Shown: piece by piece, positions 31,522 through 52,300 of the stretch
Position numbering within the stretch: position 1 is the first letter of the stretch
How the letters are laid out: every line of letters starts with the position of its first letter
Assembly: GCA_030432235.1 (NCBI GenBank)
Contig: JAUIHT010000005.1
Location: 372,001 to 436,000, forward strand
Direction of reading: 5' to 3'
From: Verrucomicrobiia bacterium
GTDB taxonomy: Bacteria > Verrucomicrobiota > Verrucomicrobiia > Opitutales > Cerasicoccaceae
Length of the DNA stretch: 64,000 bases
Made by a program: the position numbers and the translations under genes
The notes under the pieces: generated by a model
What the model was told of the DNA's origin: nothing
What the model saw: only the letters and a program-made list of their open reading frames with translations
The model's database searches: none

Positions 31522-31562
31522 GACCATTGGGGCACGTTTACGGTTCCCTTCAGACACATTCC

Positions 31563-34349
31563 ATGGTGAAAATAGTTTCCATAATCCTAACCCTAACTGC
31601 ATGCACCATGGCATTGGCCGCCGACCTGCAACAGTCATCTGATTTCACCGTAGCCCCAGGACAAGCGGGCTTTTACGCCATCCACGAAAGCAGCCTCCAA
31701 ATACCAGCGGATACCACCGCCCCGGCATCTTTCGAAGTTCTGGTGTTAGGCAGCGATCCCGAGCAGGCAACCCGCACGGTCGTGTCCACCCAGCTCAAGG
31801 GTGGCGACACCTTCGAGTTCGACAACTTCCTCGGCTACCTGAACGACGGAGATCGGGTGCAGGTGCGCATCGACGGCCAACCCGCCGCTAGCAGCGCAGT
31901 CGACTATACCGTGGTGCAAGCGCCATTGTTCGAGATCAGCGCGTTGCCACAAGACGCCGGCAAAGCGGACACCCCACTGCACGGCGGCCAATGGGCACTC
32001 AAAAGTGGCCCCTGGGCGGGAGACCCAGCCATCCAGCTCGACGGTGGCAAAGTGTGCGTCTCTCTCGTCGAAGGGGCCAAAGGAGGCTCCGTACTGGCCT
32101 TTCGGGCCGCGCACACCGGTTACTATGCACTGCACGATGCCTGGATTCAGCAAACAGCAGCCGACGGCGACGCCGTAGTCGAAGCGAAGTTGTTTACCGA
32201 CCAATCAAAAGAGCCGTTGCGTACCTTCACGATCCCGGCCGGAGATAAGCGCGTCAGCCTGAATACCGAAATTGGCTATCTGCAAAAGGATGGCGTCATA
32301 GGCATCACTCTATCCAGCGAAGGCGGCCCCGCCACCGCGAATCTGGCGGTTACTATTGCGGAGTGGGCCCCGCGGCAGCCACCCCTACGCGTACAGAGGG
32401 GCGCTGACGGCTACCTGAATGTCTACGAGCCGGAGAACCAACGCCAGGCCGTAGACATCCCGTCGGAGCGTTGGGTGGAGGTCCCCGCGCAGGACGGTGA
32501 TGCCACCGAAGCCATCCGTCAGGCCCTGGCACAGGCACAAATACTACAACAGGGCGACGACTACGCCGGCGTACGCCTCGCCCCGGAAGCCACCTATACT
32601 GTGGCCAGCGATCAAGCAGGTGGCAGGCTCTTTGTCATCAAAAACGCCCAGCGCCTGATCTTCGACGGTAACGGAGCCAGCCTGCAAATGAATTCACCCG
32701 AGCTGCAACGGCAGGACATCGATCTCTTCCGCACGGAGCACTGCCAGCGCATCGCCTTTGCCGACCTGACCGTCCTCGATCAAGCCCAGCCCTACAGCGT
32801 CGGCGAGGTAGTCCAGGTCAAGGACATCGGTCGCGGCAATCAGGACGTCTATTTCAAGGTGCCCCCCGGGCAGCCACACCCCATTGAGGACATTGCCCGC
32901 AACGGAAAGACCGGTGGCTATGCCTACGATCCGGACATTCCCGGTCGCCTCGCCGAGGGCACGTGGTCGCACTACCCGGAGGCACGCAAATACCCGGAAG
33001 GGCCTCGCATCAAGCCAGCCGGTGAGCCGGGCCTGTTCACACATGCCGTCACCCGCACCAACAACTCTATCGAGGTCGGGCAGAAGTGGGCGGTGAAAAA
33101 CAAAGGCGCAGGCGTTGTTTACCTCGTCGCTCTCGCATCCGACAATATCACTCTATCCGGCATCGATGGCAAAGCCCACGGCGGTGGCGCCGTGCGCAAT
33201 TGGGACGCCTCCGTGAACGTCCTGGATTGCCGCTTCGAGCCTCAGGGTGATCATTGGCTCAGTGCCACCTCGGACGGCATCCACGGGCGCGGACGCGAAG
33301 GCGTCTGGGTCGAAGACACCACTCTGCGGGGCATCTGCGAAGACATCATGAACACCTATGGCCACAGCATGCTCGTGGTTGCGGACGACATCCCCGATGA
33401 TAATGTCGTTTCCATACGCATGGGCCAACGCGCCCGTGACGGCTCCTTTTCCCCGGCCAATCCTCCTGACAACATCGCCCTGCGAGTCGGAGACACGGTA
33501 CAGTTTTTCAATCCCAACACCGGCCTCGTACTCGGGCAGGCGGTGGTGCGAAAAATCGACGACGGGCGATACACCCTTTCCCAGCCGATAACCGGCATCA
33601 AGAACTGGGAACCAGGCGACGACAAACGCGCCACCATCGTCTACAATACGGCCCTGGCCGCACGCGCCTATGTGCGCGATTCGGCCTTTATGGACAGCAT
33701 GCGCTTCGGCATCTTTATCAAGGCGCCGCACAGCGTTGTCTTCAACAGCCACTTTGAGGGGCTGCCCGCTCCTGCGATCTTTGTCGCCAACGAGCCCGAC
33801 TGGCCGGAAGGCCCACCCACCACTCACCTCTGGTTACAGGGCAACCACTTCAAGCAAAACAATTACGATTACCAGTCGCAGAACCGTGCGTTCCTTGTGG
33901 TCGATCCGGCTGATATCAGCATCTATACCCGCCGCCTGCGCGGCGACAGCGAACCCAACGACATGAGTTCGAATATCAGCCGGGGTCAGTTCGCCAACAG
34001 CCACATGAAAATCATCGGCAATGAATTCGAAGACTGGCGGGGCATGGGTATCTCCGTACGCAATGCCCGCAACGTTCTTATCGCTGACAATGTGTTCCAC
34101 TCTCCTGTCGACGATTCGAAAATGCGCGCCACCTTAGCCAAGGATGAGGCACTCAACGACGACGGACATGGCTGCTACGCCGCTATCTTCCTCGATAGTG
34201 TCAACGGAGCGCGCATTGGCGGAAACCGGTTCTTCGGATTCTCCGAATGGGACAAGCCCATCGTCTTCGATCAGGATGTAGAAAACGTCAGCGAAGAAGG
34301 CAATATCTCCGCCCCGAGCAGTGAGACCGACCTGGCCGCGAAGGAATAA
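31563..34349 (+). CDS. Secreted parallel beta-helix protein, probable polysaccharide-active enzyme
   Basis: The 928-residue protein has a signal peptide (to about residue 19, MALA) and two N-terminal beta-sandwich-like repeats (about 20-120 and 140-260: GFYAIHESSLQIPADTTAPA and YYALHDAWIQQTAADGDA are related). A right-handed beta-helix follows from about 330. Seen in the helix: NITLSGIDGKAHGGGAV, NVLDCRFEPQGDHW, DGIHGRGREGVWVEDTTLRG, NSHFEGLPAPAIFVANEP and NVLIADNVFHSP. The layout resembles GH110-type or other beta-helix galactosidases/lyases. I cannot assign a substrate. An in-frame ATG at 31527 is upstream of a better signal-peptide start at 31563. Confidence 0.65.
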   Translation: MVKIVSIILTLTACTMALAADLQQSSDFTVAPGQAGFYAIHESSLQIPADTTAPASFEVLVLGSDPEQATRTVVSTQLKGGDTFEFDNFLGYLNDGDRVQVRIDGQPAASSAVDYTVVQAPLFEISALPQDAGKADTPLHGGQWALKSGPWAGDPAIQLDGGKVCVSLVEGAKGGSVLAFRAAHTGYYALHDAWIQQTAADGDAVVEAKLFTDQSKEPLRTFTIPAGDKRVSLNTEIGYLQKDGVIGITLSSEGGPATANLAVTIAEWAPRQPPLRVQRGADGYLNVYEPENQRQAVDIPSERWVEVPAQDGDATEAIRQALAQAQILQQGDDYAGVRLAPEATYTVASDQAGGRLFVIKNAQRLIFDGNGASLQMNSPELQRQDIDLFRTEHCQRIAFADLTVLDQAQPYSVGEVVQVKDIGRGNQDVYFKVPPGQPHPIEDIARNGKTGGYAYDPDIPGRLAEGTWSHYPEARKYPEGPRIKPAGEPGLFTHAVTRTNNSIEVGQKWAVKNKGAGVVYLVALASDNITLSGIDGKAHGGGAVRNWDASVNVLDCRFEPQGDHWLSATSDGIHGRGREGVWVEDTTLRGICEDIMNTYGHSMLVVADDIPDDNVVSIRMGQRARDGSFSPANPPDNIALRVGDTVQFFNPNTGLVLGQAVVRKIDDGRYTLSQPITGIKNWEPGDDKRATIVYNTALAARAYVRDSAFMDSMRFGIFIKAPHSVVFNSHFEGLPAPAIFVANEPDWPEGPPTTHLWLQGNHFKQNNYDYQSQNRAFLVVDPADISIYTRRLRGDSEPNDMSSNISRGQFANSHMKIIGNEFEDWRGMGISVRNARNVLIADNVFHSPVDDSKMRATLAKDEALNDDGHGCYAAIFLDSVNGARIGGNRFFGFSEWDKPIVFDQDVENVSEEGNISAPSSETDLAAKE

Positions 34350-34696: not shown

Positions 34697-34860
34697 AATT
34701 TTCTGTTATTGAGTTTTACAAATAATCATATCAAGTATTTTTACATTATTTATATACTCAAATATAATATAAAGTATTGATAAATCAACTCCACGCTTCA
34801 GCTTTGGTAAGATAATATCTGATGCTGCAATATTACAATAATGTGTTAGTTCAAGGTTGT

Positions 34861-35493
34861 ATGACTGTTATTGTTGAAGATCAGGCGATGTTTCGCGAGC
34901 ACATGATTTCGAGAGTAAAAGCGGTGTGTGGCTCCAGTTCGCAAGAAGAAGTCATGGCTTTTTCCAGCTATGAGGAGGCCGATGCATCCGTTGACTGGAA
35001 ACGTGTCAGCACTCTCATCGTAGATATACACCTGACCGGTCGAAGCGGACTGGAACTCAGTGAGCACTATCGGAGCGAAAACCCACGTGGCGGCTTAATG
35101 TTCATATCAGGAGATTTGCGCGAATATGTACTCTGGAAAGCCCTTTCCCTAAGCCCGCAAGGATTTCTCAACAAAGAGGAATCAGGCATCGAAGACTTTG
35201 ATCGGGCTTATTCCGTGGTAAGAGCCGGAGGTGTCTACCTATGCAAGTCCGTAAGGACTTTTGCCTCTGAACTAAGAAAAAGTGTCTTCGAGAATATTCT
35301 TTCGCCGAGGGAGATTGAGATTTTTTCGATCATTGCCAAAGGCAAGGATGACCGGGAGACCGCCCAATTGCTGTCCTTATCCGAAGCCACGGTGACCACC
35401 CATCGCCGCAATATCATGAGGAAGCTGGGCGTTCACAGTTCGACTGAGTTGCTGGTAGAAGCCAGCCGATTGGGTTTACGAGACTCTCATTAA
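34861..35493 (+). CDS. LuxR/NarL-type response regulator
   Basis: A 210-residue regulator. The N-terminal receiver has E6-D7 (VEDQAMF), the phospho-acceptor Asp55 in TLIVDIHLTGRSG and a Lys in GFLNKEES. The C-terminal LuxR HTH has ILSPREIEIFSIIAKGKDDR followed by TAQLLSLSEATVTTHRRNI. The start at 34861 is chosen from the receiver fold and an AAGG a few bases upstream; an in-frame ATG at 34822 is possible. The gene faces the hybrid kinase gene and overlaps it by the four-base TTAA, so the two are likely partners. It may control the peptide/YcaO genes beyond the kinase. Confidence 0.85.
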   Translation: MTVIVEDQAMFREHMISRVKAVCGSSSQEEVMAFSSYEEADASVDWKRVSTLIVDIHLTGRSGLELSEHYRSENPRGGLMFISGDLREYVLWKALSLSPQGFLNKEESGIEDFDRAYSVVRAGGVYLCKSVRTFASELRKSVFENILSPREIEIFSIIAKGKDDRETAQLLSLSEATVTTHRRNIMRKLGVHSSTELLVEASRLGLRDSH

Positions 35494-38400
35494 AGCCAAT
35501 GCGGCTTCCAGTTTCGGAGTTTTTCCTTCAGCTCCTCCACCAGCCGCTTCACTTGCTGGACCGACTGCTCAGTGGCGCCCCGCTGCTCGATGTAATCCGC
35601 GAGATCGCGCAAATCCTGATGATTGGTCATGCTGGCAAGGTTTAACAGCCGGTGTGCCGCCTCGGCTTCGGCATCTTCCGATGTGCGCTTGTCCTTTGTC
35701 TGCGAGGCAATCAATTGATCCAAGGCTTCGTCGAAAGACTTGATGACCTCCCTCTTGAGACTGTGCACTCGCTCGGGGTTGCGCCTGCATATGAGCGAAA
35801 GCTGCAGGAATTCTTCATCATGGATGTCATCCAAAGAATACGTGTCCCGCTTGGGGATACTGGAGATAATCGTGAATATCTCGGCCTCATCATAAGGCTT
35901 TTGGATAATGAAATTGCAGCCCTCACTCAGGCACTGCCTCTTCATCTCGTCACTCGTGTAGGCAGTAGCAGCAATGATAATGGCTTCTCGATTGAGCGAA
36001 TCCATGTGCTGTATGACGTCCGAACCGGAACCGTCCTTTAAGTGCCAATCCAAAAAGATGACGTCGAAGGGCTGCCTGGACAGCAAGTCTATCGCTTCCT
36101 TAGTACTTGCCGCCTCCGTAATCGTACTGGTGGTCTTCTCCAAAATCAGGCGGAGGTACTCGCGATTATAAGATTCGTCTTCCACGATCAGTATCTTCAA
36201 ATGAGCAACCGGCCTCTGGACCTTATCTTCCTTTTTCAGGACCGCCTTCGCAAAGGTGCCTTTAAATGTAAAGGTGCTGCCGTGATTGCTTTCGTCGGTA
36301 CTGCTCTGCTTGAGAAACAGCTGGCTATCGAGATTGTCCGCAATCTTACGGCATAGAGCCAGGCCCAGGCCACTACCCGGAGTTTCTTTGTGTATTTCGC
36401 GACGTCCAAAGAGTTCGAAAATCAACTCCTTGTCACTGTCGGTGATCCCTGGCCCGCTATCGATGCAGTCGATTTCCAGATCGATCTCACCATTCCTGGC
36501 TTCAGCCTGCAAAGCCAGGGTGACTGAACCGCTTTGCGTATACTTAATAGCATTGCTGACGAGATTGACCAAAATCTGACGCAGACGGTTCGGGTCTATT
36601 TCCACCACGCAAGGCTTATCAAAGTTCTTCGTAATCCTTACCTCCGGAGTCAGCCCCTTATCTTGGGCAGGTTTTCGGTACAATTCCATCGTCTCGTGAA
36701 CCAAAGCCTCGATATCGGCAGGCTCCCGGCGCATACGCATTTTACCGGTCTGTATCTCGCCAATTTCGAGGATATCCTCCACCAAGTTAGTCAGGACCGA
36801 TGTGCAATTTTTTAACGACGACAGTGTTCTGTTGTTTTCGCTTCCCTCAAGGCGCTCTTGCAGAATCTCGCACAGGCCGACGATGCCGTTCAGCGGATTA
36901 CGGATTTCATGGCTTACACTCGCCATGAACTCGTCCTTGGCACGGACCGCCTTGCGCAGGGCCTCTGTTTTCTCATCGACCCGGATCTGCAGCTCCACGT
37001 TCCGCTGTTTCAGCACCTGCAATTTGATTCGATAGCCAATACCCGCGACCAGGAAAATCAGGAGCGCAAAAAACAGCAATGCCCAGGATGTCAGGTACCA
37101 GGGGGGATTCACCTTGACCATAAAACCGACCGGAGGACTTGTATTGCCCTGACCGTCAATGGCTCGGATTTCGATGGTATATTCCCCATGAGGCAACGGG
37201 CTGATACTAATGGTCGAATCCTGAGTTTTCCGGCTCCAGTGATCATCCAAACCCGGAATATGATACTGGAGATAAATCTCCTGAAAAGGCTCCGGCAAGG
37301 GCCCCGACAGCTCCAGGCGAAAAGACTCTCCGTTATCCAAATGCAGAAAATCACTGGATATGGGGCCACTGGACGCACTCGTGAATATCGCATTAATAGA
37401 GGGCTTGCGCAAAGTCTCTTCGCTTTCCTCCAGAGGTTTACTCACCTTCATCAGCCCTTGGTTTCCACAAACCCAAAGTATGTCATCTTTTAAAATCACC
37501 TTATTGGTTTGTCCGACTGATTCGATGGAGGTCACTCTAATGGCCTGCATATCTCCCTCATCGTAAAAAATGATATTCCTGGGCTCGCTTTCAACCAGGA
37601 GGATTGTGCCATTGGGACTTTCCGTTACGGCGCGCTCATCCCAGTCACCATGGAGTAATTGTTTCCAGTCTTTTTTATTCCATTCCCATATACTGTTTTT
37701 CGTTTTGAGGAGCAGCTTATTGCCTAAACGCATTATTTGAATCCACGGCTCATCTTTAATGCCACGGGGCAGATCCAGTTCCCAGTAATTCGAGGTTTCG
37801 CGGTCAACAACCAAGATCCCTTCTGCAGGTCTCGCTGCATAAATATGGTTATCATATTCTACGAGCGACCGGATGCTTCCAGAGAAATCCTGGGCCAGGA
37901 TTTTGAGCTCCCACTCGTCGTCTCTGGTGTCCAGTTCAGCCAAAAATTCGTCACCTGCCAGTAGCAACTTGCCACTTTCACTGCTACGCTGAATCAAGAA
38001 AGGGTCTGAGGGGGTTGGTATAACCTGGATAGTATCTCCAGAATTAGCGTCGATACAGTGAACACTAAAGATCGCACCAACAGCCAATTCTTCCTTATTG
38101 GCAAATAGGACATTATAGGCCGGGGGCAACTCTGCGGGAAGTTTCCTAAGCTCATTATTTTCGTCCCATACGTAAATGCCGCCGAAGGTTAGTACAGCTC
38201 CATTGGGCCCTTCAATATCCGTATCCAGAATGGTGTCCTTGAATTCATTCTGGGAAGTCAGGCTACGCACTCTCGAATCAATATCAAGCAAGGCGAGCGC
38301 ATTGTTGAAGCCAATCCAAACGCCGCTACTATTGGAGCAATCCAAGTGAATAACACTGTTGCTTGGAGCTCCATTATCCTTGTTGAGGTTTTTCCATTTA

Positions 38401-39239
38401 TTTCCCTCACGAAGGTACAAACCATTGTAAAATGTTCCGATGTACCAAGAGTCGCCGATCTGACCGACAGAGGTTACGACTCCGCTTGTTAGCTTTCCAG
38501 TTAATGGGCTAGAGTGCGGCTTAAGTCCGTCTTCAGTCAGTTCCCAAAGCCCGCTCTTGGATGTAGCAAGAAGCGTCTTTCCATCCTCATATAAGACTCC
38601 AACAGCGTAGGACGGCCTGATGGGCTCATCCGTACAGAGAAGGCGGGGAGGTGAATTCTCGGTGACCTCATAAATCCCATTATTGGATTCATGGATAAGC
38701 ACTCGCTGGTTCAGGGGGTCAGACATTCCCCGCAAGTAAAAATCATTTGGAATCTCCCAGATTTCCAAGTTTGATTCCCCGTTTTCAGTGAAGGAAGCTC
38801 GTATTATCTGCTCATCTGACGTCGCGATGACCGATGTTTCCAATGGGTAAATCCCATTGATATCAACGGCTTTTTTCGTTGCTGGTGATCGTTTGGTGAA
38901 CACACCGTGCTCTAACGTCCCAATCCCACCTTGTCCTCCTACCCAAACCACAGACTCGTTCTGGGGATCCCGGCACAACCCACGTATCCAGAACATACCA
39001 GACAACCCGGTTTTATCCCAGTGGTAGCCGTTGTAGACCAGCAAATCATCACTGCCGACCAACAACCTACTATCCAACTCTAATGTTACCCATGTCGGGG
39101 CCATACTCGGGTATTCACCCGCACTGTATATCTCCATGACGGGATAACCCCAGTCCATATGGCCCGGCTTCGCACGGCAAAGGTGAATCACCATTACCTG
39201 AAACAGCAATAAGTAGAAGACTTTTGTGGACGGAGACAT
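35490..39239 (-). CDS. Hybrid two-component histidine kinase with beta-propeller sensor (HTCS-like)
   Basis: The 1249-residue protein has a signal peptide (about 1-23) and a periplasmic propeller of Reg_prop-like repeats to ~620, for example TSKSGLWELTEDGLKP and GTFYNGLYLREGNKWKNLN. A Y_Y_Y domain near 640-710 (EIYLQYHIPGLDDHW) and a membrane helix near 716-735 follow. HisKA has its His in VSHEIRNPLNGI (~775). HATPase_c has VNLVSNAIKYTQSG and GSGLGLALCRKIA. The receiver (LDWHLKDGSGSD, ~1063) and a C-terminal Hpt-like helix bundle (AAHRLLNLASMTN) complete it. This is the architecture of sensors that read extracellular sugars or other ligands. It is divergent from the peptide-YcaO genes, with only 148 bases between. 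Confidence 0.9.
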   Translation of the reverse strand: MSPSTKVFYLLLFQVMVIHLCRAKPGHMDWGYPVMEIYSAGEYPSMAPTWVTLELDSRLLVGSDDLLVYNGYHWDKTGLSGMFWIRGLCRDPQNESVVWVGGQGGIGTLEHGVFTKRSPATKKAVDINGIYPLETSVIATSDEQIIRASFTENGESNLEIWEIPNDFYLRGMSDPLNQRVLIHESNNGIYEVTENSPPRLLCTDEPIRPSYAVGVLYEDGKTLLATSKSGLWELTEDGLKPHSSPLTGKLTSGVVTSVGQIGDSWYIGTFYNGLYLREGNKWKNLNKDNGAPSNSVIHLDCSNSSGVWIGFNNALALLDIDSRVRSLTSQNEFKDTILDTDIEGPNGAVLTFGGIYVWDENNELRKLPAELPPAYNVLFANKEELAVGAIFSVHCIDANSGDTIQVIPTPSDPFLIQRSSESGKLLLAGDEFLAELDTRDDEWELKILAQDFSGSIRSLVEYDNHIYAARPAEGILVVDRETSNYWELDLPRGIKDEPWIQIMRLGNKLLLKTKNSIWEWNKKDWKQLLHGDWDERAVTESPNGTILLVESEPRNIIFYDEGDMQAIRVTSIESVGQTNKVILKDDILWVCGNQGLMKVSKPLEESEETLRKPSINAIFTSASSGPISSDFLHLDNGESFRLELSGPLPEPFQEIYLQYHIPGLDDHWSRKTQDSTISISPLPHGEYTIEIRAIDGQGNTSPPVGFMVKVNPPWYLTSWALLFFALLIFLVAGIGYRIKLQVLKQRNVELQIRVDEKTEALRKAVRAKDEFMASVSHEIRNPLNGIVGLCEILQERLEGSENNRTLSSLKNCTSVLTNLVEDILEIGEIQTGKMRMRREPADIEALVHETMELYRKPAQDKGLTPEVRITKNFDKPCVVEIDPNRLRQILVNLVSNAIKYTQSGSVTLALQAEARNGEIDLEIDCIDSGPGITDSDKELIFELFGRREIHKETPGSGLGLALCRKIADNLDSQLFLKQSSTDESNHGSTFTFKGTFAKAVLKKEDKVQRPVAHLKILIVEDESYNREYLRLILEKTTSTITEAASTKEAIDLLSRQPFDVIFLDWHLKDGSGSDVIQHMDSLNREAIIIAATAYTSDEMKRQCLSEGCNFIIQKPYDEAEIFTIISSIPKRDTYSLDDIHDEEFLQLSLICRRNPERVHSLKREVIKSFDEALDQLIASQTKDKRTSEDAEAEAAHRLLNLASMTNHQDLRDLADYIEQRGATEQSVQQVKRLVEELKEKLRNWKPHWL

Positions 39240-39314
39240 ACAGGCTACCTACCTAAATTTGGGTAAAAATACCCGTTGGTGGAAGTCTCATTTATAGCAT
39301 ACGATTAACTTTAG

Positions 39315-39387: not shown

Positions 39388-39618
39388 ATGAAAAAAACAC
39401 TAATCGGACTCATTGCATCGGCGTTGTTGGCCTGTGGGGCAGCAAGAGCAGCCCAGGCTCTGGACATGACGCTAAATAAGACTCCCGGCATAGACAGCGG
39501 CGTAGCACTTGATGCCTCTGACACGTGTACCTGGCCCTGCGAAGACAGCAGCGCAGATACCTGCACTTGGCCCTGTGAAGATGCAGCAGACACCTGCACC
39601 TGGCCCTGCGAAGAATAA
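39388..39618 (+). CDS. Exported 76-residue peptide with three DTCTWPCE repeats: candidate RiPP precursor
   Basis: Seen: a signal-peptide-like N terminus (MKKTLIGLIASALLACGAAR, with LLAC as a possible lipobox and A-R-A as a possible type I site), a short linker to about residue 44, then DTCTWPCED (45-53), DTCTWPCED (57-65) and DTCTWPCEE (68-76). The octapeptide DTCTWPCE is identical in all three copies while the codons differ at silent positions, so the peptide is under selection. A good AGGA ribosome-binding site precedes the ATG. The next gene encodes a YcaO-like enzyme, whose usual targets are Cys, Ser and Thr. Inferred: a precursor with multiple cores. A Sec-type leader is unusual for such precursors. 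A simple metal-binding secreted peptide is the alternative. Confidence 0.7.
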   Translation: MKKTLIGLIASALLACGAARAAQALDMTLNKTPGIDSGVALDASDTCTWPCEDSSADTCTWPCEDAADTCTWPCEE

Positions 39619-39754
39619 CCCCCCTCCCACTCTTTCGGATTCCACAAGTTTACCACCTCCACTGTGTTAATTCTGGCAGCTCAGGAGCATCTTGCTACTT
39701 CTGGTAACTTGCCTCCGCAGCAGCCGTGTGTCAAAATACTAGCCAAAAATTGGT

Positions 39755-39778
39755 CCCGGCGGTCAACAACCCGCCGGG
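39755..39778 (+). terminator. Hairpin between peptide and YcaO genes (partial terminator/attenuator)
   Basis: CCCGGCGG, an eight-base loop and CCGCCGGG form a perfect GC-rich 8-bp stem. It is followed by GCTAACTTTTC and then the YcaO ATG 15 bases after the stem. It could reduce transcription into the enzyme gene, leaving more peptide than enzyme, as is common in RiPP loci. Confidence 0.55.
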
Positions 39779-39792
39779 GCTAACTTTTCAAG

Positions 39793-40677
39793 ATGCTGTC
39801 GATTGCCCCCATCAGTTATCGAAATATCCTGGCTCAGAACGGGGGGCCAATAGATCGGTTGACTTCCTGTAAGGTCGACTGGCAGGGCAAACCCGAGTAT
39901 CAGGTAAATGCCTTCCTAAGAGAGGAATTTCGGCGGAAAAAGCCCATGGGTACCGTCTACTCCGACGCGGACGGTACGGGCACTCACGCTACCCAACTGG
40001 TTGCCAGCCACATTGCAATTTCCGAATCCCTTGAGCGCTGGGCCTTCCGGCTATGCCGCAAGGAAAGCAAATACGGCTTTGATGTCGACCCGACATCGAA
40101 CGGCATGGCAGCGTTTCCAGGCATTTTCGCGCGCCAAAGCAGAACTTTTGCCCTGGCGGAGGCCAAGGAGCGCTTCTGTCTCATGGCCTGGTGGATGGGA
40201 CATTACCGTGCCGAGGTGATCCGCACCGGGAACGAGCACGCCGTCAGGCTTAGGGCCCCCGGAGGTGGCTATGTAGCCATCCTGACCCGCAGCGGGGTCA
40301 ATTTCCGCGCCTATGGCACCGGAGGCGGCCGAAGCTGGACGCTGGCGCTTGCTAGAGCCAGACTGGAAATGGTACGCAACCAACGTCAAGTTCAGCGCTT
40401 TTTGGAGCGCCACCCCGGCTTCGATTTCAGCCAAGTGTCTTCACTACCCTCTTTCCGTGACAAACGAGTCCTCCACTACGCCTTGGACGGCCAGGCGGAA
40501 TTTTGGGAGAAGCTAAAACACTCCGTGACCTTTGAGGGGCCAGACATGCTCCCCAAGAAGGTGTTCGATGATGAAATCAAGGGCCCCTGGAGCCGCTATG
40601 CACGGGTATGGCGAGTGTGTTACGAACCGCCGAATCCCGATCACATGAATCCGGAGAAGATGTACCTGTTCGCCTAG
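39793..40677 (+). CDS. Stand-alone YcaO-like ATP-dependent peptide-modifying enzyme
   Basis: The 294-residue protein shows three YcaO-type nucleotide-site elements in order. ExxER occurs at 78-82 (SESLERW). A second ExxER occurs at 123-127 (LAEAKERF), preceded by the TSNGMAAF loop at 101-108. E192-x-x-R195 with Q198 lies in the helix after a Gly-rich turn (YGTGGGRSW). YcaO enzymes activate a peptide backbone amide with ATP to form azolines, thioamides or amidines. The protein is shorter than usual. No E1-like/Ocin-ThiF, TfuA or dehydrogenase partner lies nearby. The first ExxER motif lacks the Ser normally four residues before it (Ile here). Its only plausible substrate in reach is the repeat peptide upstream. 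Confidence 0.72.
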   Translation: MLSIAPISYRNILAQNGGPIDRLTSCKVDWQGKPEYQVNAFLREEFRRKKPMGTVYSDADGTGTHATQLVASHIAISESLERWAFRLCRKESKYGFDVDPTSNGMAAFPGIFARQSRTFALAEAKERFCLMAWWMGHYRAEVIRTGNEHAVRLRAPGGGYVAILTRSGVNFRAYGTGGGRSWTLALARARLEMVRNQRQVQRFLERHPGFDFSQVSSLPSFRDKRVLHYALDGQAEFWEKLKHSVTFEGPDMLPKKVFDDEIKGPWSRYARVWRVCYEPPNPDHMNPEKMYLFA

Positions 40678-40689
40678 TTACCTGGGGTT

Positions 40690-43305
40690 TTAGAACTCCT
40701 TGGCAACCTCGATATAGAACTGACGACCGAGAATGCTGTACTGAGAGCGGTCGTAGATGTTAAAAATATTAGCCTGTTGAACACTGTACGGAGGCTGCTC
40801 ATTGTTAAGATTATTCACGCCAATGGCTGCTGTCCAACCCTCGTACTCATAAGCGAGTTGCAGATCAAAGGAACTCCAGGACCCTACGTAACGAGTCCCG
40901 ATGGGTTGTCTGGCCGGAGATAAATTGGTTTCCCTGGTGCTACTGATAAAATTCCAGGCCAAGGTCAAAGCCCATCCCTTGTGCTCCCCGGTAGCACTCA
41001 GGCGGGTTTTCCAGCGAGGAATACTCACCCCATTAAGAGCGTCAAACTGCCCCGCGTTTTGACTGTAGGCACCTGCTGGAGTGCTCTGCTCCTTGAACGA
41101 CGCGATGTAGGTCGCCCGACCGCCAAGCGTTATCGAGCCGGCATCCGACTCCAAGGCCCGCCAAGCCCCGTTCATGTCGATACCCTCCACCCTTCGCTTG
41201 CCAAGATTAGCATACCGGGAGCTAATAGAGGTGACGGTGCCACCCGGCCCGAAGGTTACCTGGCTGCCAGCCGGAAGCTCGTTCCCTGCGATTGCCTGAT
41301 CGACCAGGAATTGGGGGCTGGGAAGGCCGATAACATCATTTTGAAGAATTTGCCAGAAGCCGGCCCCGAAAACAAAACTGTCCGTGGGATCGGCTTCAAA
41401 GCCGACACCCCAACTGAGACTCTTTTCCGGGTCGAGCTGGCTGTAACCGCTCTCCCTCACACCAACTACGCCCTGGCCCGTGTCCAAAGGATTGCTGATA
41501 GGCTGATAATTCACCCGGTTTCCCTGATACAATTGTTGCAGCCCGGGAGCGCGATAACCAGTCTCTACATTCCCAGAGAAGGTGACGGGAACGACCTTCG
41601 GACGGGCGGCGATGCGAAAGGCCGGAGTTCCAACCCAACCAAAATCGCTGTAGTACTCGCCACGCCCGGCCAGATTCAGATTCAAAAACTCTACGGTGGA
41701 GGTATTGTTGAGCACCGGAACGCGTGCCTCACCAAACATGCCGAACACCGTCCGGTCACCATTCGTACCTGCCTGGGCGGGAGCCCCCAAGGCCAGCCCC
41801 TGAGCCTTGAGTGAATCCGGAGAGAAATCCAGATACTCGTTGCGAAGTTCAAGTCCGGCAGCGCCAATAATAGGACCCGCGTCAGTCTGAATTAATTCGT
41901 CACTAATAGACCCATTGGTACTGAGTATGCGGTAGGTCCCCTTGTCTATGGTCGTATAATCCAAGCTCGCCAGATTGGGGTTTCCTACATTCAGGCTGCT
42001 GGGCCCGAAGAGATTAATACTCCCAGGATCGGTGCTGAGAATCTGGCTCTGCAGGGCGTTTGCATTGACCAGATGAGTCGCGGTCAGCTTACTGTAATCC
42101 TGAGAAATTCCTACATTCCAATTCCAGTTCAGCGCATCCCGCTCTCCCTGCAAACCACCCTGCCAGGTAAAATTCTGTTCCGTGGTCGTCAGGACGCGAT
42201 CTCCCAGTTCCGAAAATCGCTTCTCCCACAAAACATTCTCCCCAAAGGGATTGTGTGGATTGGTCGCGGGAATGAACAAGAGCGTGGGACCGGCACCCAG
42301 GTCCACCGTTTCACGATCTGCGGCAACGGGGGCGGGAGCCTGGTTCTGCTGCGTCTCCATCCACGTAAAATAACCCGTCATATAAGCCTCCACCGTGGTG
42401 ACGCCATTCACCTTTTGCAGCGGATGGTTAACGTTGGCGTAAAAGGATGCCGTATCGGTTTCCGAAAGCGCTGACATTTCCGGGTAGTAATCGTAAGGCC
42501 GATCAAAACCGCTATAGTCAGCCATGACGTTAGGATCACCGCCGGGGTTTAGTTGAAGGAATCCTCCACTATCAGGCAAAATCAGGGGGGGATTCGCGCT
42601 GGTGGAACGAAAATCAGCAAAACCAAACCGGGTAAAGTTCGCCGTTTCCGTCAAATTACGATCTTTCGACAACACGTTATCTTCATGCTCATAGCTGGCC
42701 ATGACCGTAATACTGGTCTCGTCCACCTTACCTCCCGCGATACCTCCGATCGTGTAGGAATTCTGATTGTCCGCATAGCCGTAATAACCGTAGAGTTTTG
42801 CGCCCTCGTAGTCCCGCAAGCTTAGTATATTGATGACGCCGGCGATGGCATCGGAGCCGTAGGTGGCTGCGGCACCCTGATTTAGAATATCAATCTGGTT
42901 AACAGCTAAAAACGGCAAGGTCGCAATGTTCACCGCGTCGTTGTCGGTCTGCGCACCTGCACTGTAGGCCAAACGCTGCCCATTGAACAGGACCAGGGTC
43001 GCATTCGCGGGCAAGCCACGCAGAGCCACAAATTGCTCGGCCGCACTGGACAGGCCGCTCTGCCGCCCCTGCAAATTACCTGGACCAGTTATAGCCGGCG
43101 ACAACCGGATGATCTCTGCCAAGTTTTGGCGTCCACTCTGAAAAATGTCCTTCTCGTCGAAGGTTTGTATCTGGGTAGCGGTGAATTCAGGCTCAGCTAT
43201 ATACGAGCCGGTTTCCGCAACAAAAGGTTCCAATTCAGGCAATGCTTGCGCATGGGCAATATGCCCTATCCCTACTAGTAATAAAAAATGGATGGCGGTT
43301 TTCAT
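40690..43305 (-). CDS. TonB-dependent outer-membrane receptor
   Basis: About 871 residues. The start at 43305 (MKTAIHFLLLVGIGHIAHA) gives a signal peptide; an ATG 14 codons earlier is less likely. The plug domain (about 35-165) has QTFDEKDIFQSGRQNLAEII, VALRGLPANATLVLFNGQRL (80-100 region) and NQGAAATYGSDAIAGVINI. A 22-strand-type barrel follows, ending in RQFYIEVAKEF with the terminal Phe required for assembly. No SusD partner or STN signalling domain is present. It takes up a siderophore, metal complex, vitamin or glycan through TonB. It converges on the YcaO gene with 12 bases between, which raises the possibility that it imports the modified peptide. That link is inferred from position only. 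Confidence 0.85.
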   Translation of the reverse strand: MKTAIHFLLLVGIGHIAHAQALPELEPFVAETGSYIAEPEFTATQIQTFDEKDIFQSGRQNLAEIIRLSPAITGPGNLQGRQSGLSSAAEQFVALRGLPANATLVLFNGQRLAYSAGAQTDNDAVNIATLPFLAVNQIDILNQGAAATYGSDAIAGVINILSLRDYEGAKLYGYYGYADNQNSYTIGGIAGGKVDETSITVMASYEHEDNVLSKDRNLTETANFTRFGFADFRSTSANPPLILPDSGGFLQLNPGGDPNVMADYSGFDRPYDYYPEMSALSETDTASFYANVNHPLQKVNGVTTVEAYMTGYFTWMETQQNQAPAPVAADRETVDLGAGPTLLFIPATNPHNPFGENVLWEKRFSELGDRVLTTTEQNFTWQGGLQGERDALNWNWNVGISQDYSKLTATHLVNANALQSQILSTDPGSINLFGPSSLNVGNPNLASLDYTTIDKGTYRILSTNGSISDELIQTDAGPIIGAAGLELRNEYLDFSPDSLKAQGLALGAPAQAGTNGDRTVFGMFGEARVPVLNNTSTVEFLNLNLAGRGEYYSDFGWVGTPAFRIAARPKVVPVTFSGNVETGYRAPGLQQLYQGNRVNYQPISNPLDTGQGVVGVRESGYSQLDPEKSLSWGVGFEADPTDSFVFGAGFWQILQNDVIGLPSPQFLVDQAIAGNELPAGSQVTFGPGGTVTSISSRYANLGKRRVEGIDMNGAWRALESDAGSITLGGRATYIASFKEQSTPAGAYSQNAGQFDALNGVSIPRWKTRLSATGEHKGWALTLAWNFISSTRETNLSPARQPIGTRYVGSWSSFDLQLAYEYEGWTAAIGVNNLNNEQPPYSVQQANIFNIYDRSQYSILGRQFYIEVAKEF

Positions 43306-43874
43306 ACTCTTAGTGAAATTTATCGAGGCCAGACACCGCTTTGACAACTCATTTTCAGTAAGGCATTCGTAATGTTCGAGTTGGAAAAGTATAGTACGTA
43401 TTCTTAATTCACACAGAGATTGAATGTTTCAGTCATATACTAAATCTTTTTCCTGTCCCATTTTAAAATTCATAATATACTGAACATAATACACTTATAA
43501 CCAAAAACGAGCAAACATGAACGTTATCCCTAACCTTTGGCATGGGGGCATCCATAGGCACTGACAATCAAATGCTTATAGTTCAAATAAGATAGAGAAA
43601 CATAGCGCAACGGTAGTTCAACGAGGCTTGACCAACACCCGCTGACGGCAATTGCCTAGTAGTTTGTATGGCGTTATTAGCTTACCCAAATACCCATGGA
43701 GGCGCTCAAGCGGCCTCCCACATAATAGGTGCCGGACGCTTCGAGGCGAATGCCAAGGTCCCACATGGCTGCTCAATACCCACGAGTCGTAGAGCGCTTG
43801 AAAACACATAATGGACAAATCACGCAGAGAGTAGTGGACAAGGCTGTGTGTAGGTCCCTAATGTCGTCAGGTTT
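43306..43874. other. Intergenic region between the TonB receptor and the ABC transporter
   Basis: 569 bases with no gene I can support. ACAACTCATTTTCAGT at 43345-43360 is nearly repeated at 29350-29365, upstream of a PEP-CTERM gene. A small hairpin (GGAGGC, loop, GCCTCC) lies near 43699-43719. Short open frames near 43618-43870 show no family resemblance. The last ~150 bases presumably hold the promoter of the solute-binding protein gene. Confidence 0.4.
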
Positions 43875-49398: not shown

Positions 49399-52300
49399 AT
49401 GAATATCTACCCATATCTAAAACGGAGCCGTCTCGCTGGCCTGACCTTGGCAACAGCGGCTACCCTGTTGATTCCTCAACAGCAACTCTGTGGCCAGCAG
49501 GCCGTGTCTGTCGGCACAGGCAGCTATGCCGAGTACCCTCCGCTACACGAAGACATCGTCGGGGGCGAAGATATCGGCCTGGTGACAAACTTCCTGAACC
49601 GGGAACTCTACATCCACAGTTCCAAGGATGGAGAACCCGTCCCGACAAACGACTGGTGGACCGATCTGATTTTCAATCAGTATTCGGGAAATATGTGGGC
49701 CTACCCTCTCACCATTCAGGCTACGGCGGATGGCGTCGATGTATTCTATCCCGTCGAGTTTTCCACTTCGGGTACGAGTATGCTGACCGAATACCCCATC
49801 GGGGTTGGTGGCCAAGTGGCCATCGTGCTTGAGCCGAGCGATACCATTCTCGCCGATTTCGAGGGTGGCACCTGGCCGACGGGATGGGTGACAACGGGAA
49901 CGGCCTTTGGTAGTGCGCCTGCCGCAGGCACGGTGACGGGCCAGTCGGTGGTCACCAACTACAACGGAGCCGGCCTGGCGAATTCTTTCCATGGCGGCGA
50001 TGCCTCCACCGGCACACTGACTTCGCCAACCTTCACCGTCGATGCGCAGTACATTCATGCGCTCGTGGGTGGCGGCAACCATCCCGGTGACGCAGAAATC
50101 CGCCTGGTCGTTGGCAGCACTGTGGAGCGCTCAGCTACGGGCGTGAATTCGGAAGAGCTGTCCTGGATATCCTGGGATGTCTCCGAGTTCGACGGACAGA
50201 CTGCATATGTGGAAGTGGTCGACAATGTCACCGGCGGCTGGGGCCACATTATGGCCGACCAGATCGTGATGACCGACGACGACGACCCTGCGGCCAAGTT
50301 CAGTACTGATTTTTCACCAGTCAGCGCGGTGGCGCTTGATTGGTCGGACTGGCATGTGCAAATGCGCCTGGAGCAGAATACCAACGCCTATATGGACGTG
50401 ACGATGGGGCACGGCTTTCCCTTCGTCTGGATTGAAGCTACCGGCGTGAGTCCCCTTCTGGAGATCGATGCCAGTGCGGTGCTGCGCGATGCCGCAGGCA
50501 ACACGATCACGCTTCCCTATACCGGAGCAACCCTCTCTGTAGAAGTTCAAGGCAGGGTCTACGGCCTGCACGCGCCCGACGGCACGATTTTTGACGACTT
50601 CAACGGCGATCTCCTGGTGGAGTTGGGAAGTGGCGATTATTTGGTCGTCAGTGCTCTGCCGGACACAACCGATTTGAGTGCTTTTGACGCCTACGCTTAC
50701 GCTGTCCCGCGCGATACGGTCATGACTTGGTCCTATGCTCCGGCCAACGGCTACGTACGCACGAACTGGACGGTAACCGCCGAAGCCCTGAAGGGCACAA
50801 GCACCACCGTCTTGCAGGGCTGGATACCACATCACTACCGCGAGACGACGAACGACTTCACCTTTACCGGTGACAGCTATGTGACGCCGCGCGGCAAGCT
50901 GAAGCTGGCGGCCTCGAACACCGCACAGATCGACTTTCCCTTCACCGGGATTCTGCCGAACCTGCCACCGCCAAGCCAGTTAGGCGGCACTCATGATTAC
51001 TCGCCCGTGCGCATGGATTTTTACCTCGACCAGTATGCCTTGCGTACGGAATACGGCGGCGACACCTATTGGGGCGGCAAGAGCCTCACCCAGTTTGGCG
51101 ATTATATGACTATCGCGGCCGACCTCGGCTCCGACAATCTCGACGCCCTGAAAGCCTCGCTGACAGTCGCACTGGCGGACTGGTTCACCTACGACGGCCT
51201 CGAAACCGAGTATTACTTCGCTCGCTACGATGGCTACAAGGCCCTGGTCGGGTTTAACGAGTCCTATGGTTCGTCGCAATTTACGGACAACCATTTTCAC
51301 TACGGCTACTTCACCCGCGCCGCGGCTTTGCTGGGGCTGCAAGACCCGCAGTTCCTGACCAACTACGGCGCCATGGTCACGCTTATTGCCAAGCAATACG
51401 CCAACTGGGATCGCACCGACACGAACTTCCCTTTCATGCGCACATTTGACCTCTGGCATGGGCATTCGTACGCCGGCGGTTTGAGTGCGGGCAATGGCAA
51501 CAACCAGGAGTCGAGTTCCGAGTCGATGCAGTCCTGGTGTGGCCTCTTCCTGCTTGGTCAGGCACTGGGCAACACGGATATGAGCGCAGCAGGCGCCATG
51601 GGTTATGCCATCGAGCGTCTCGCAATCAAGGAGTACTGGCTCGACTATCATGGCAATCCGGCGGCGACCAACCCTGTGCTCGGCGACGGCGGCACGCTGC
51701 CGGTGGAGTATGGCCACGAGTTGGCAGGCATTGTCTTCGACAGCGGCCCGGCCTACGCGACGTTCTTCAGCGGCGACCCGGGCTGGATGTACGGCATCCA
51801 GTGGTTGCCCATTCAACCTGGGCTGGCCTATCTGGGTGAAGACACGGCCTTCGCCAAAGCGCAGATGAACTCCATGATCCAGGATCGTGTGCCCACCATG
51901 GGCGGCTCCGCCCGGGGCGTCATCCGCGACTACAATCTAGCCCCTGCGCAAACCGAATGGCACACTAGCGAAACGGCGGGCGCGCTGGAAAAATTCGCCG
52001 GCGCGATCAAGATAGCCTACGATCACAACCCGACTTACACTCTCGCGCAAACCAACAACCCGCTCTATGTGAACGGCGTTCTCAGCTTCACCGTAGAGCA
52101 GGACGGCGCGATCACGCTCGACCCCACAATCTGGAGCGCAGCTACGCTGGCCAACTACACTGACCTCGTGCCTCCGGCTATCGGCCAACCACTGGAAGGC
52201 TGGCCTCTGTATGATTACCTCTACGTCAATTACGACTACGACGAAGCCTATCTGGAGGATAAATGGGAATTCGAAGTGCTGAACTACCAGAGCGGCGTCG

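Follow-up and report, generated by a model that had tools for sequence, protein, structure and literature searches.

What is made from a short peptide gene that ends in three copies of one octapeptide and lies beside a lone enzyme of the YcaO fold, and which other genes work with the two? The question arises from a 64,000-nucleotide stretch of a Verrucomicrobiia bacterium (contig JAUIHT010000005.1, positions 372,001 to 436,000 of the forward strand), referred to here as the window. A first-pass annotation of the window had proposed that the two genes constitute a new type of ribosomally synthesized and post-translationally modified peptide (RiPP) system. Our comparison of 91 loci upholds this proposal as a whole, through the pairing of the genes, the conserved leader of the peptide and its variable core, which we infer to be modified. 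The precursor and the enzyme are very likely a genuine RiPP pair. With equally high confidence, we assign both to one functional module that includes a divergently transcribed hybrid sensor kinase and a response regulator. From its sequences, the module would appear to be a modified-peptide system that has not been described before; it is found in the Opitutales, bacteria of water and soil, and is probably a chemical signal. (We use Opitutales in its broad GTDB sense.)

A precursor peptide paired with a YcaO-fold enzyme

The loci examined were the window, 80 contig loci drawn from the 102 enzyme relatives found, and ten further genomes (L002, L004, L006, L007, L008, L010, L012, L014, L015 and L016). 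A leader profile seeded with 12 peptides picked out, in 73 of the 80 contig loci, a precursor a short way upstream of the enzyme, five of the 73 being seeds that recur in the contig collection. In 72 of these loci the precursor lies within 1.2 kb, and in L079 it overlaps the enzyme start. Five further precursors were found by eye (L027, L071, L090, L094 and L098), bringing the leader-bearing precursors just upstream of the enzyme to 78 of 79 testable contig loci. Locus L052, with only 10 nt of upstream sequence, is untestable; L089 is the sole testable contig locus that has no precursor. Candidate precursors are also present in the window and in each of the ten further genomes, in L015 recognized by eye only. 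The first-pass annotation had anticipated that the two genes would co-occur in other genomes, with differing numbers of cores; we observe this pairing, and the homologous loci carry from 1 to 5 core copies.

The family is confined to a narrow group in the collections searched. As a query, the single enzyme protein matches in 18 of 384 genomes of the class, two of them weakly (about 4e-4). A profile built from an enzyme alignment of 17 rows (A1, with L017 and L018 left out as weak matches) finds matches in 16 of 369 genomes of the class and in 14 of 387 from the phylum, every one of them belonging to the same order as the window. All 79 contig loci with a stated taxon belong to the Verrucomicrobiota, mostly to Opitutales, Opitutia, Opitutaceae or genera placed there. 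A search of a plasmid collection gave no match.

In the window, the precursor gene (39388–39618, + strand) encodes 76 residues, of which approximately residues 1–26 form the leader, and its C-terminal region carries three copies of the core DTCTWPCE (39520–39543, 39556–39579 and 39589–39612, all + strand). The second and third copies differ from the others by silent codon changes only. Both open reading frames (ORFs) and the repeats are present as first described, as is the silent codon variation: pairwise comparison of the three cores gives 10 synonymous differences (proportion of synonymous differences, pS, 0.77) under an identical peptide. Six other multi-core loci have pS values of 0.68–0.95 and nonsynonymous proportions (pN) of 0–0.048, the low pN being partly built in because core copies were chosen by matching peptide. 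As read from these sequences, the evidence for selection is thus the heavy silent divergence of core copies under an unchanged peptide.

Alignment of 93 precursors, the window's included, gives a leader consensus of approximately M-K/N-...-G-L-x-S-S-L-L-L-x-x-G-L/F-x-R-A-A-E-R-L-D-P, followed by a variable stretch. Apart from the start methionine, its columns are identical in up to 89 of 93 precursors; they include a glycine (89/93), an alanine (84/92) and an aspartate (80/92). The cores are hypervariable, in contrast to the conserved leaders, and often end in a PC motif. A cysteine follows the leader in 83 of the 93 precursors; in 49 of these 83 the last cysteine is preceded by proline (background frequency of proline, 0.10), and in 33 another cysteine lies four positions before it. 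Over all 93 precursors, PC occurs in 55, CxxxC in 34 and CxxC in 15. Repeated cores include 5 x SAFSELPCQF (L093), 4 x AFCDTVCNF (L004), 3 x AFTETVCNF (L045), 3 x SLGCAQLPCYHRDF (L085), 2 x ACTAACH (L088) and 2 x AWEQPPGVPP (L094). When FCDTVC, FTETVC and FSELPC are compared, the second cysteine is fixed and the first place holds cysteine, threonine or serine. In Cerasicoccus-type peptides PCEV alternates with PTEV, threonine replacing cysteine in some Cerasicoccus cores. Given this exchange of cysteine, threonine and serine, azoline chemistry would fit the cores better than obligatory metal binding.

The first-pass annotation described the leader as Sec-type or lipoprotein-type. A 13-residue stretch with a mean hydropathy of at least 1.6 is present in 77 of 93 leaders, and an AxA-like site, by a permissive rule, in 83 of 93; leaders below 1.6 are mainly of the Cerasicoccus, Coraliomargarita and Lacunisphaera types. 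A Sec-like leader is therefore plausible in most loci, including the window, but in fewer than all. The lipoprotein half of the description is unsupported because the cysteine of a lipobox-like column is unconserved (8/93 precursors), and we rejected it.

Some precursors depart from the common form. Four loci (L021, L022, L023 and L030) encode two leader-bearing precursors each, and one of the two in L022 and L023, and both in L030, are free of cysteine; these may be two-peptide systems. The cores of L094 and L015 are unusual in containing GGGIIIK or DGDIIIR, and the leader in these loci is of another kind. The window peptide falls just short of the cut-off of TIGR04114 (19.8 versus 20 bits), a match that we read as chance arising from the cysteine repeats and that is absent in eight other precursors; in an NCBIfam search at E 0.1, seven of eight precursors had no match and one had an unrelated weak match.

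The enzyme gene follows (39793–40677, + strand; 294 residues). On the window protein alone, the YcaO family PF02624 scores 22.1 bits, below the Pfam cut-off of 25.7, and it matches all 17 members of A1 at E values up to 1, the best being 9e-10. An AlphaFold model of the enzyme has a mean predicted local distance difference test score (pLDDT) of 87.7. In a structural comparison (VIA), YcaO proteins fill the first 13 places (Z 16.6 to 9.4, the next row having Z 5.9), led by McbD (6gos_D; Z 16.6, 3.8 Å over 250 residues). Foldseek gave 13 hits at E values up to 0.001, consisting of 11 YcaO proteins and two chains with double-stranded-RNA-binding domains. Residues G18, P19, E78, E81, E126, E192 and W273 are among those invariant in the 17 rows, and E123 is conserved in at least 90%. 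The conserved glutamates are presumably the ATP/Mg-site residues. The second ExxER motif is paired in a weak profile match to Escherichia coli YcaO (hhalign probability 9.6, E 0.0033). A PDB sequence search with the enzyme returned one unrelated weak hit and none with the enzyme profile. By its modelled fold, the enzyme belongs to the YcaO superfamily, with the caveat of its sub-cut-off Pfam score; the predicted YcaO-like enzyme is borne out by this fold, its best structural matches and the conserved glutamates.

The enzyme also appears to stand alone, as first suggested. In the window genome, which is 95.9% complete, we found no second YcaO match at E values up to 1 and no match to TfuA (PF07812) above the cut-off (best E 0.42). 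The larger annotated clusters of neighbouring genes include no E1-like or ocin-ThiF partner, some clusters being unannotated and no genome-wide search for one having been made. According to PMC13063428, E. coli YcaO thioamidates without TfuA; thioamide chemistry could thus occur here without that partner.

The two genes are separated by 174 nt in the window, whereas the gap in 73 related loci has a median of 21 nt. A GC-rich hairpin reported in this gap is real (39755–39778; z-score of the stretch -3.1, terminator-like on the - strand only in a consensus scan), but it is not conserved in the family, and we rejected it as a family feature.

A divergent sensor kinase and a palindrome before the precursor

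Two further genes, which the first-pass annotation had passed over together with the palindrome described below, recur beside the pair. In the window, a 1249-residue hybrid sensor kinase (35490–39239, - strand) is divergent from the precursor, and a 223-residue LuxR/NarL-type response regulator with Response_reg and GerE domains (34822–35493, + strand) lies tail to tail with the kinase. Pfam domains, transmembrane prediction and a model of the sensor describe the kinase as a propeller/Y_Y_Y sensor of approximately 700 residues followed by HisKA, HATPase, REC and a weak Hpt match (E 0.033), with one strong transmembrane stretch (712–743). The 720-residue sensor part was modelled at pLDDT 83.4, and the top 15 PDB chains found with it by Foldseek, from five entries, are the sensor domains of Bacteroides BT4663, BT3049 and BT4673 (best E 2e-26, TM 0.71). 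Because of this BT4663-type fold and the transmembrane stretch, we infer that the sensor is periplasmic.

We clustered neighbouring ORFs of at least 90 residues across the 80 contig loci; smaller ORFs were left out. A kinase cluster (median 1242 residues) is present in 73 of the 80, mostly on the opposite strand just upstream. Of the 77 loci with at least 600 nt of upstream sequence, 72 have a member of this cluster as immediate divergent neighbour, the misses being L021, L026, L040, L078 and L083. In the 58 loci that have 5.2 kb or more, the regulator lies behind the kinase in 50; three of the eight misses (L071, L073 and L096) have it downstream of the enzyme instead.

The palindrome TACC-N8-GGTA (TACCTAAATTTGGGTA; 39250–39265), a candidate response-regulator site, lies between the kinase and precursor starts, 122 nt upstream of the precursor. 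No second exact match occurs in the 64 kb of the window, where 0.28 would be expected. Across the family, the 250 nt before the precursor contain an exact match in 24 of 77 regions, the window included, and shuffled sequences reach at most 2. Other gaps from 0 to 16 yield 0 or 1 exact match each, compared with the 24 at gap 8. With one mismatch allowed, gap 8 gives 28 matches, other gaps up to 15 and shuffles up to 14; the relaxed form YACC-N8-GGTR occurs in 34 of 77 regions, against a shuffle mean of 0.97 and maximum of 5. Of the 28 sites, 13 end 47–49 nt and 9 end 70–71 nt before the precursor start, in loci many of which are related, a kinship that the shuffles ignore. The spacing of the palindrome is that of the 7-2-7 arrangement of NarL sites. 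That the regulator acts on this palindrome is probable.

A tighter version of the pattern occurs at 6 forward places in the window genome, versus 0 for the control, a count that is partly circular because the pattern was written after hits to the loose pattern had been seen. Besides the module, five near-copies (L151–L155; C3:179106, C11:48498, C42:450006, C7:172825 and C7:335753 of the window genome) are candidate further targets on the strength of their sequence. Three of them lie 84–194 nt upstream of genes whose products have signal-like N-termini, one of these being a DUF1573 protein; of the other two, one precedes a short ORF by approximately 10 nt and one lies where two genes converge.

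The kinases of the module form a group of their own. In a tree of 125 kinase cores (five module kinases, split into two frames, were labelled by place), one branch divides 78 module kinases and three that lack the pair from 44 others, 19 of them from the window genome (Shimodaira–Hasegawa-like approximate likelihood ratio test, SH-aLRT, 84). Removal of the eight longest rows leaves a split of 79 versus 38 (SH-aLRT 89). The 19 other kinases of the window genome, which match at E values up to 1e-20, do so over query residues 703–1149 only.

The receiving half of the module can occur without the peptide half. The sensor profile matches 30 of 369 class genomes, compared with 16 of 369 for the enzyme profile; the module kinases of G141 and G160 fall below the threshold of the sensor profile (1.9e-9 and 1.6e-9). 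Of the 30, 15 are free of the enzyme; among five of these 15 that we examined (L134–L138), the kinases of L134, L135 and L136 fall inside the module clade and those of L137 and L138 outside it. Three genomes (L134, L135 and L136) thus hold a module-clade kinase and regulator with neither precursor nor enzyme. Their kinases nest among module kinases on branches supported at 98–99; the tree forces three separate changes, for which loss is the simplest explanation. L134 and L135 share the gene order T2SSF-type gene (by Pfam in L134), tRNA-Gly, kinase and regulator, which is the order of L146 minus the pair. In L136 the regulator comes after the kinase, at the place where L091 and L073 have the pair. 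A kinase and regulator without the pair are what one would expect of a receiver that remains useful. The tRNA-Gly gene adjoins the site in L134 and L135, and it adjoins the pair in L036, L039, L047, L086 and L146.

Kinase and regulator aside, neighbour clusters occur in at most 20 of the 80 loci. The cluster that reaches 20 (cluster 3) appears spurious: 15 of its 20 members are frames antisense to the regulator. Smaller clusters were annotated by single representatives or left unannotated; they include one with no Pfam match in 8 loci, MlaD in 5 and Cons_hypoth95 in 5. Among the clustered ORFs, no self-protection or dedicated export gene was recognized right beside the pair. A small kinase-like gene, with frames of approximately 263–339 residues, lies downstream of the enzyme on the + strand in 9 of 80 loci (L024, L028, L029, L034, L037, L038, L049, L051 and L095; HATPase_c confirmed in L095). 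Genes for TonB-dependent receptors adjoin the enzyme in the window (40690–43347, - strand) and in Cerasicoccus arenae (L071:10912–13644, - strand). We rejected this receptor as a partner of the module: its cluster occurs in 4 of the 80 loci, and among them only in L071 is it directly beside the enzyme. The surroundings in the window also include carbohydrate-active genes, namely a 1758-residue protein with a GH81 C-terminal domain and F5/8-type C domains (49399–54675, + strand) and a 940-residue beta-helix protein (31527–34349, + strand).

Signal, effector or metal ligand

The explanation that we favour, at about an even chance, is a peptide signal that is modified by the YcaO and detected through a dedicated phosphorelay. 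In the precursor, the conserved leader is followed by a single hypervariable core or by several; most cores contain a cysteine, often preceded by proline, and the cores would be the parts modified. The lone YcaO would use ATP to activate the backbone amide at the core cysteine (threonine in some species), most likely yielding an azoline. Removal of leader and linkers would release the core to the periplasm or the outside, and the Sec-like leader could serve export in most loci. The released core would bind the propeller sensor, and the hybrid kinase would pass the signal by phosphorelay to the LuxR/NarL-type regulator; we consider it a toss-up whether the released product is in fact the ligand of the kinase. 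The regulator would then bind TACC-N8-GGTA and increase expression of the pair in a positive loop that may also involve a few other genes. We favour this signal because a distinct kinase group is tied to the pair, because a likely regulator site precedes the precursor, because no self-protection or export gene was recognized beside the pair, and because the receiver can occur without it. The broader proposal is more tentative, and we rate it at somewhat under an even chance: that these are YcaO-made peptide pheromones of Gram-negative bacteria, with lineage-specific hypervariable cores, a propeller-sensor phosphorelay, positive feedback and some genomes that only listen, the receiver having outlasted the loss of peptide and enzyme.

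Several observations weigh against a peptide signal. The nearest sensor fold, BT4663, carries a title of heparin and heparan sulphate sensing; the ligand may thus be something other than a peptide. Even in its relaxed form, the palindrome is missing from 43 of 77 loci, and the loose pattern is unenriched in the window genome (52 places versus 133 for the control). Relatives of the sensor occur in 15 class genomes that have no enzyme. A cysteine after the leader is missing in 6 of 89 loci, some leaders are weakly hydrophobic, and a gene resembling an ABC transporter occurs in 12 of 80 loci, mostly 7–10 kb away. Co-variation of cores and sensors is not robust: a first partial Mantel test was positive (r 0.275, p 0.001, n 60), and in five further analyses (n 51–57) r was 0.03–0.12. 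In those five, p was 0.04–0.33 under free permutation and 0.001–0.015 within groups, and core–enzyme r was 0.12–0.21. Two near-duplicates were dropped from these analyses, as were, in parts, loci lacking a full kinase or a post-leader cysteine.

The main competitor to the signal is a regulated effector: the kinase would sense something else, such as a glycan, a stress or a competitor, and the modified peptide would be the output, such as a compound used in defence or scavenging. The heparan-sulphate title of the closest sensor fold, a palindrome placed before the precursor as for a target, and the carbohydrate-related genes of the window, such as the GH81-domain protein, are all consistent with this account, which we regard as possible, if less than likely. 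Against it, the three genomes with a module-clade kinase and regulator but no pair imply that these proteins do more than switch on the peptide, and no self-protection gene was recognized beside the pair, genes under 90 residues being unclustered. The absence of a recurrent immunity or dedicated export gene next to the pair also counts against an autoinduced antimicrobial, in which the peptide would be both antibiotic and inducer, as for nisin with NisRK; the ABC-type gene lies mostly at a distance where present, and the post-leader parts are net negative in 59 of 93 precursors, neutral in 23 and positive in 11. A candidate modified peptide, kinase and regulator in one locus, together with the hypervariable cores, would suit such a compound, which we nonetheless think improbable.

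The CxxxC and CxxC spacings, and the TonB-dependent receptor gene next to the enzyme in the window and in C. arenae, invite a different account, in which cysteine pairs with azoline or thioamide would bind metal, in a chalkophore-like peptide or a periplasmic buffer, and the kinase would sense metal status. A C-x3-C metal site had indeed been suggested for the window peptide. The spacing itself does occur in the family, but we rejected metal binding as its common theme, given the minority of precursors with CxxxC and the loci that lack a post-leader cysteine; many cores have one cysteine or none, and the receptor is rarely nearby. We consider this role slightly less probable still than the antimicrobial. 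We think it very improbable that the enzyme has a different substrate, with the peptide gene no more than a linked neighbour. E. coli YcaO offers a precedent, since it modifies ribosomal protein uL16 and has no short-peptide gene nearby (PMC13063428); here, the near-constant co-occurrence of precursor and enzyme at a short median gap, their joint absence from three genomes and the conserved leader with its variable core all argue against such a case.

Related systems and biological meaning

Known systems resemble the module in part. The Bacteroides hybrid two-component sensors BT4663, BT3049 and BT4673 share its sensor fold and hold propeller/Y_Y_Y sensor, kinase and receiver in one chain. BT4663-type systems have a DNA-binding domain fused at the C terminus. 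The window kinase instead ends in a receiver and a weak Hpt match by Pfam, with no fused DNA-binding domain, and the module differs further in its separate NarL-type regulator and its link to a peptide–YcaO pair. ComQXPA and agr are alike in placing a precursor, a modifying enzyme, a membrane kinase and a regulator at one locus. In the module, a YcaO takes the place of ComQ or AgrB, the hosts are Gram-negative, the sensor is a propeller on a hybrid kinase and the layout is divergent; its signal role is a proposal. Nisin with NisRK resembles it in joining a modified peptide, here a predicted one, to a dedicated two-component system; beside the module we found no adjoining transporter, immunity or protease genes, and its enzyme and precursor differ.

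Streptamidine, as presented in PMC8442711, and bottromycin, named there, share with the module a short precursor beside a YcaO unfused to any other domain. Relative to that survey of stand-alone YcaOs of Actinobacteria, the precursor family, cores and taxa of the module differ, and a sensor kinase and regulator are its recurrent partners. The DAG-RiPPs of multinuclear non-heme iron-dependent oxidative (MNIO, DUF692) enzymes are alike in that the precursor N-terminus can be a secretion-type signal, according to PMC12636315; the module has a YcaO in place of an MNIO enzyme and no conserved lipobox. Opitutus terrae served as a training genome in PMC7794033, PMC10352776 treats YcaO clusters of Bacteroidales, PMC7298704 covers soil clusters in which the YcaO case is a candidate phyla radiation genome, and PMC11613949 describes thioamitides from deadwood. 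Among the papers surveyed on YcaO enzymes and RiPPs in Verrucomicrobiota, mainly outside subscription journals, we found no equivalent module.

The module offers practical openings. Its 93 precursor sequences are available for co-expression, and the pair, being only two genes, is a convenient test of the activity of a lone YcaO. The palindrome-bearing promoter could serve as a natural reporter, and genomes that hold the receiver only provide a natural comparison. If the signal reading is correct, YcaO chemistry, which is known from antibiotics and from the tailoring of ribosomes or enzymes, would be joined with cell–cell signalling, and this link would have been found in a common and little-studied order of aquatic and soil bacteria.

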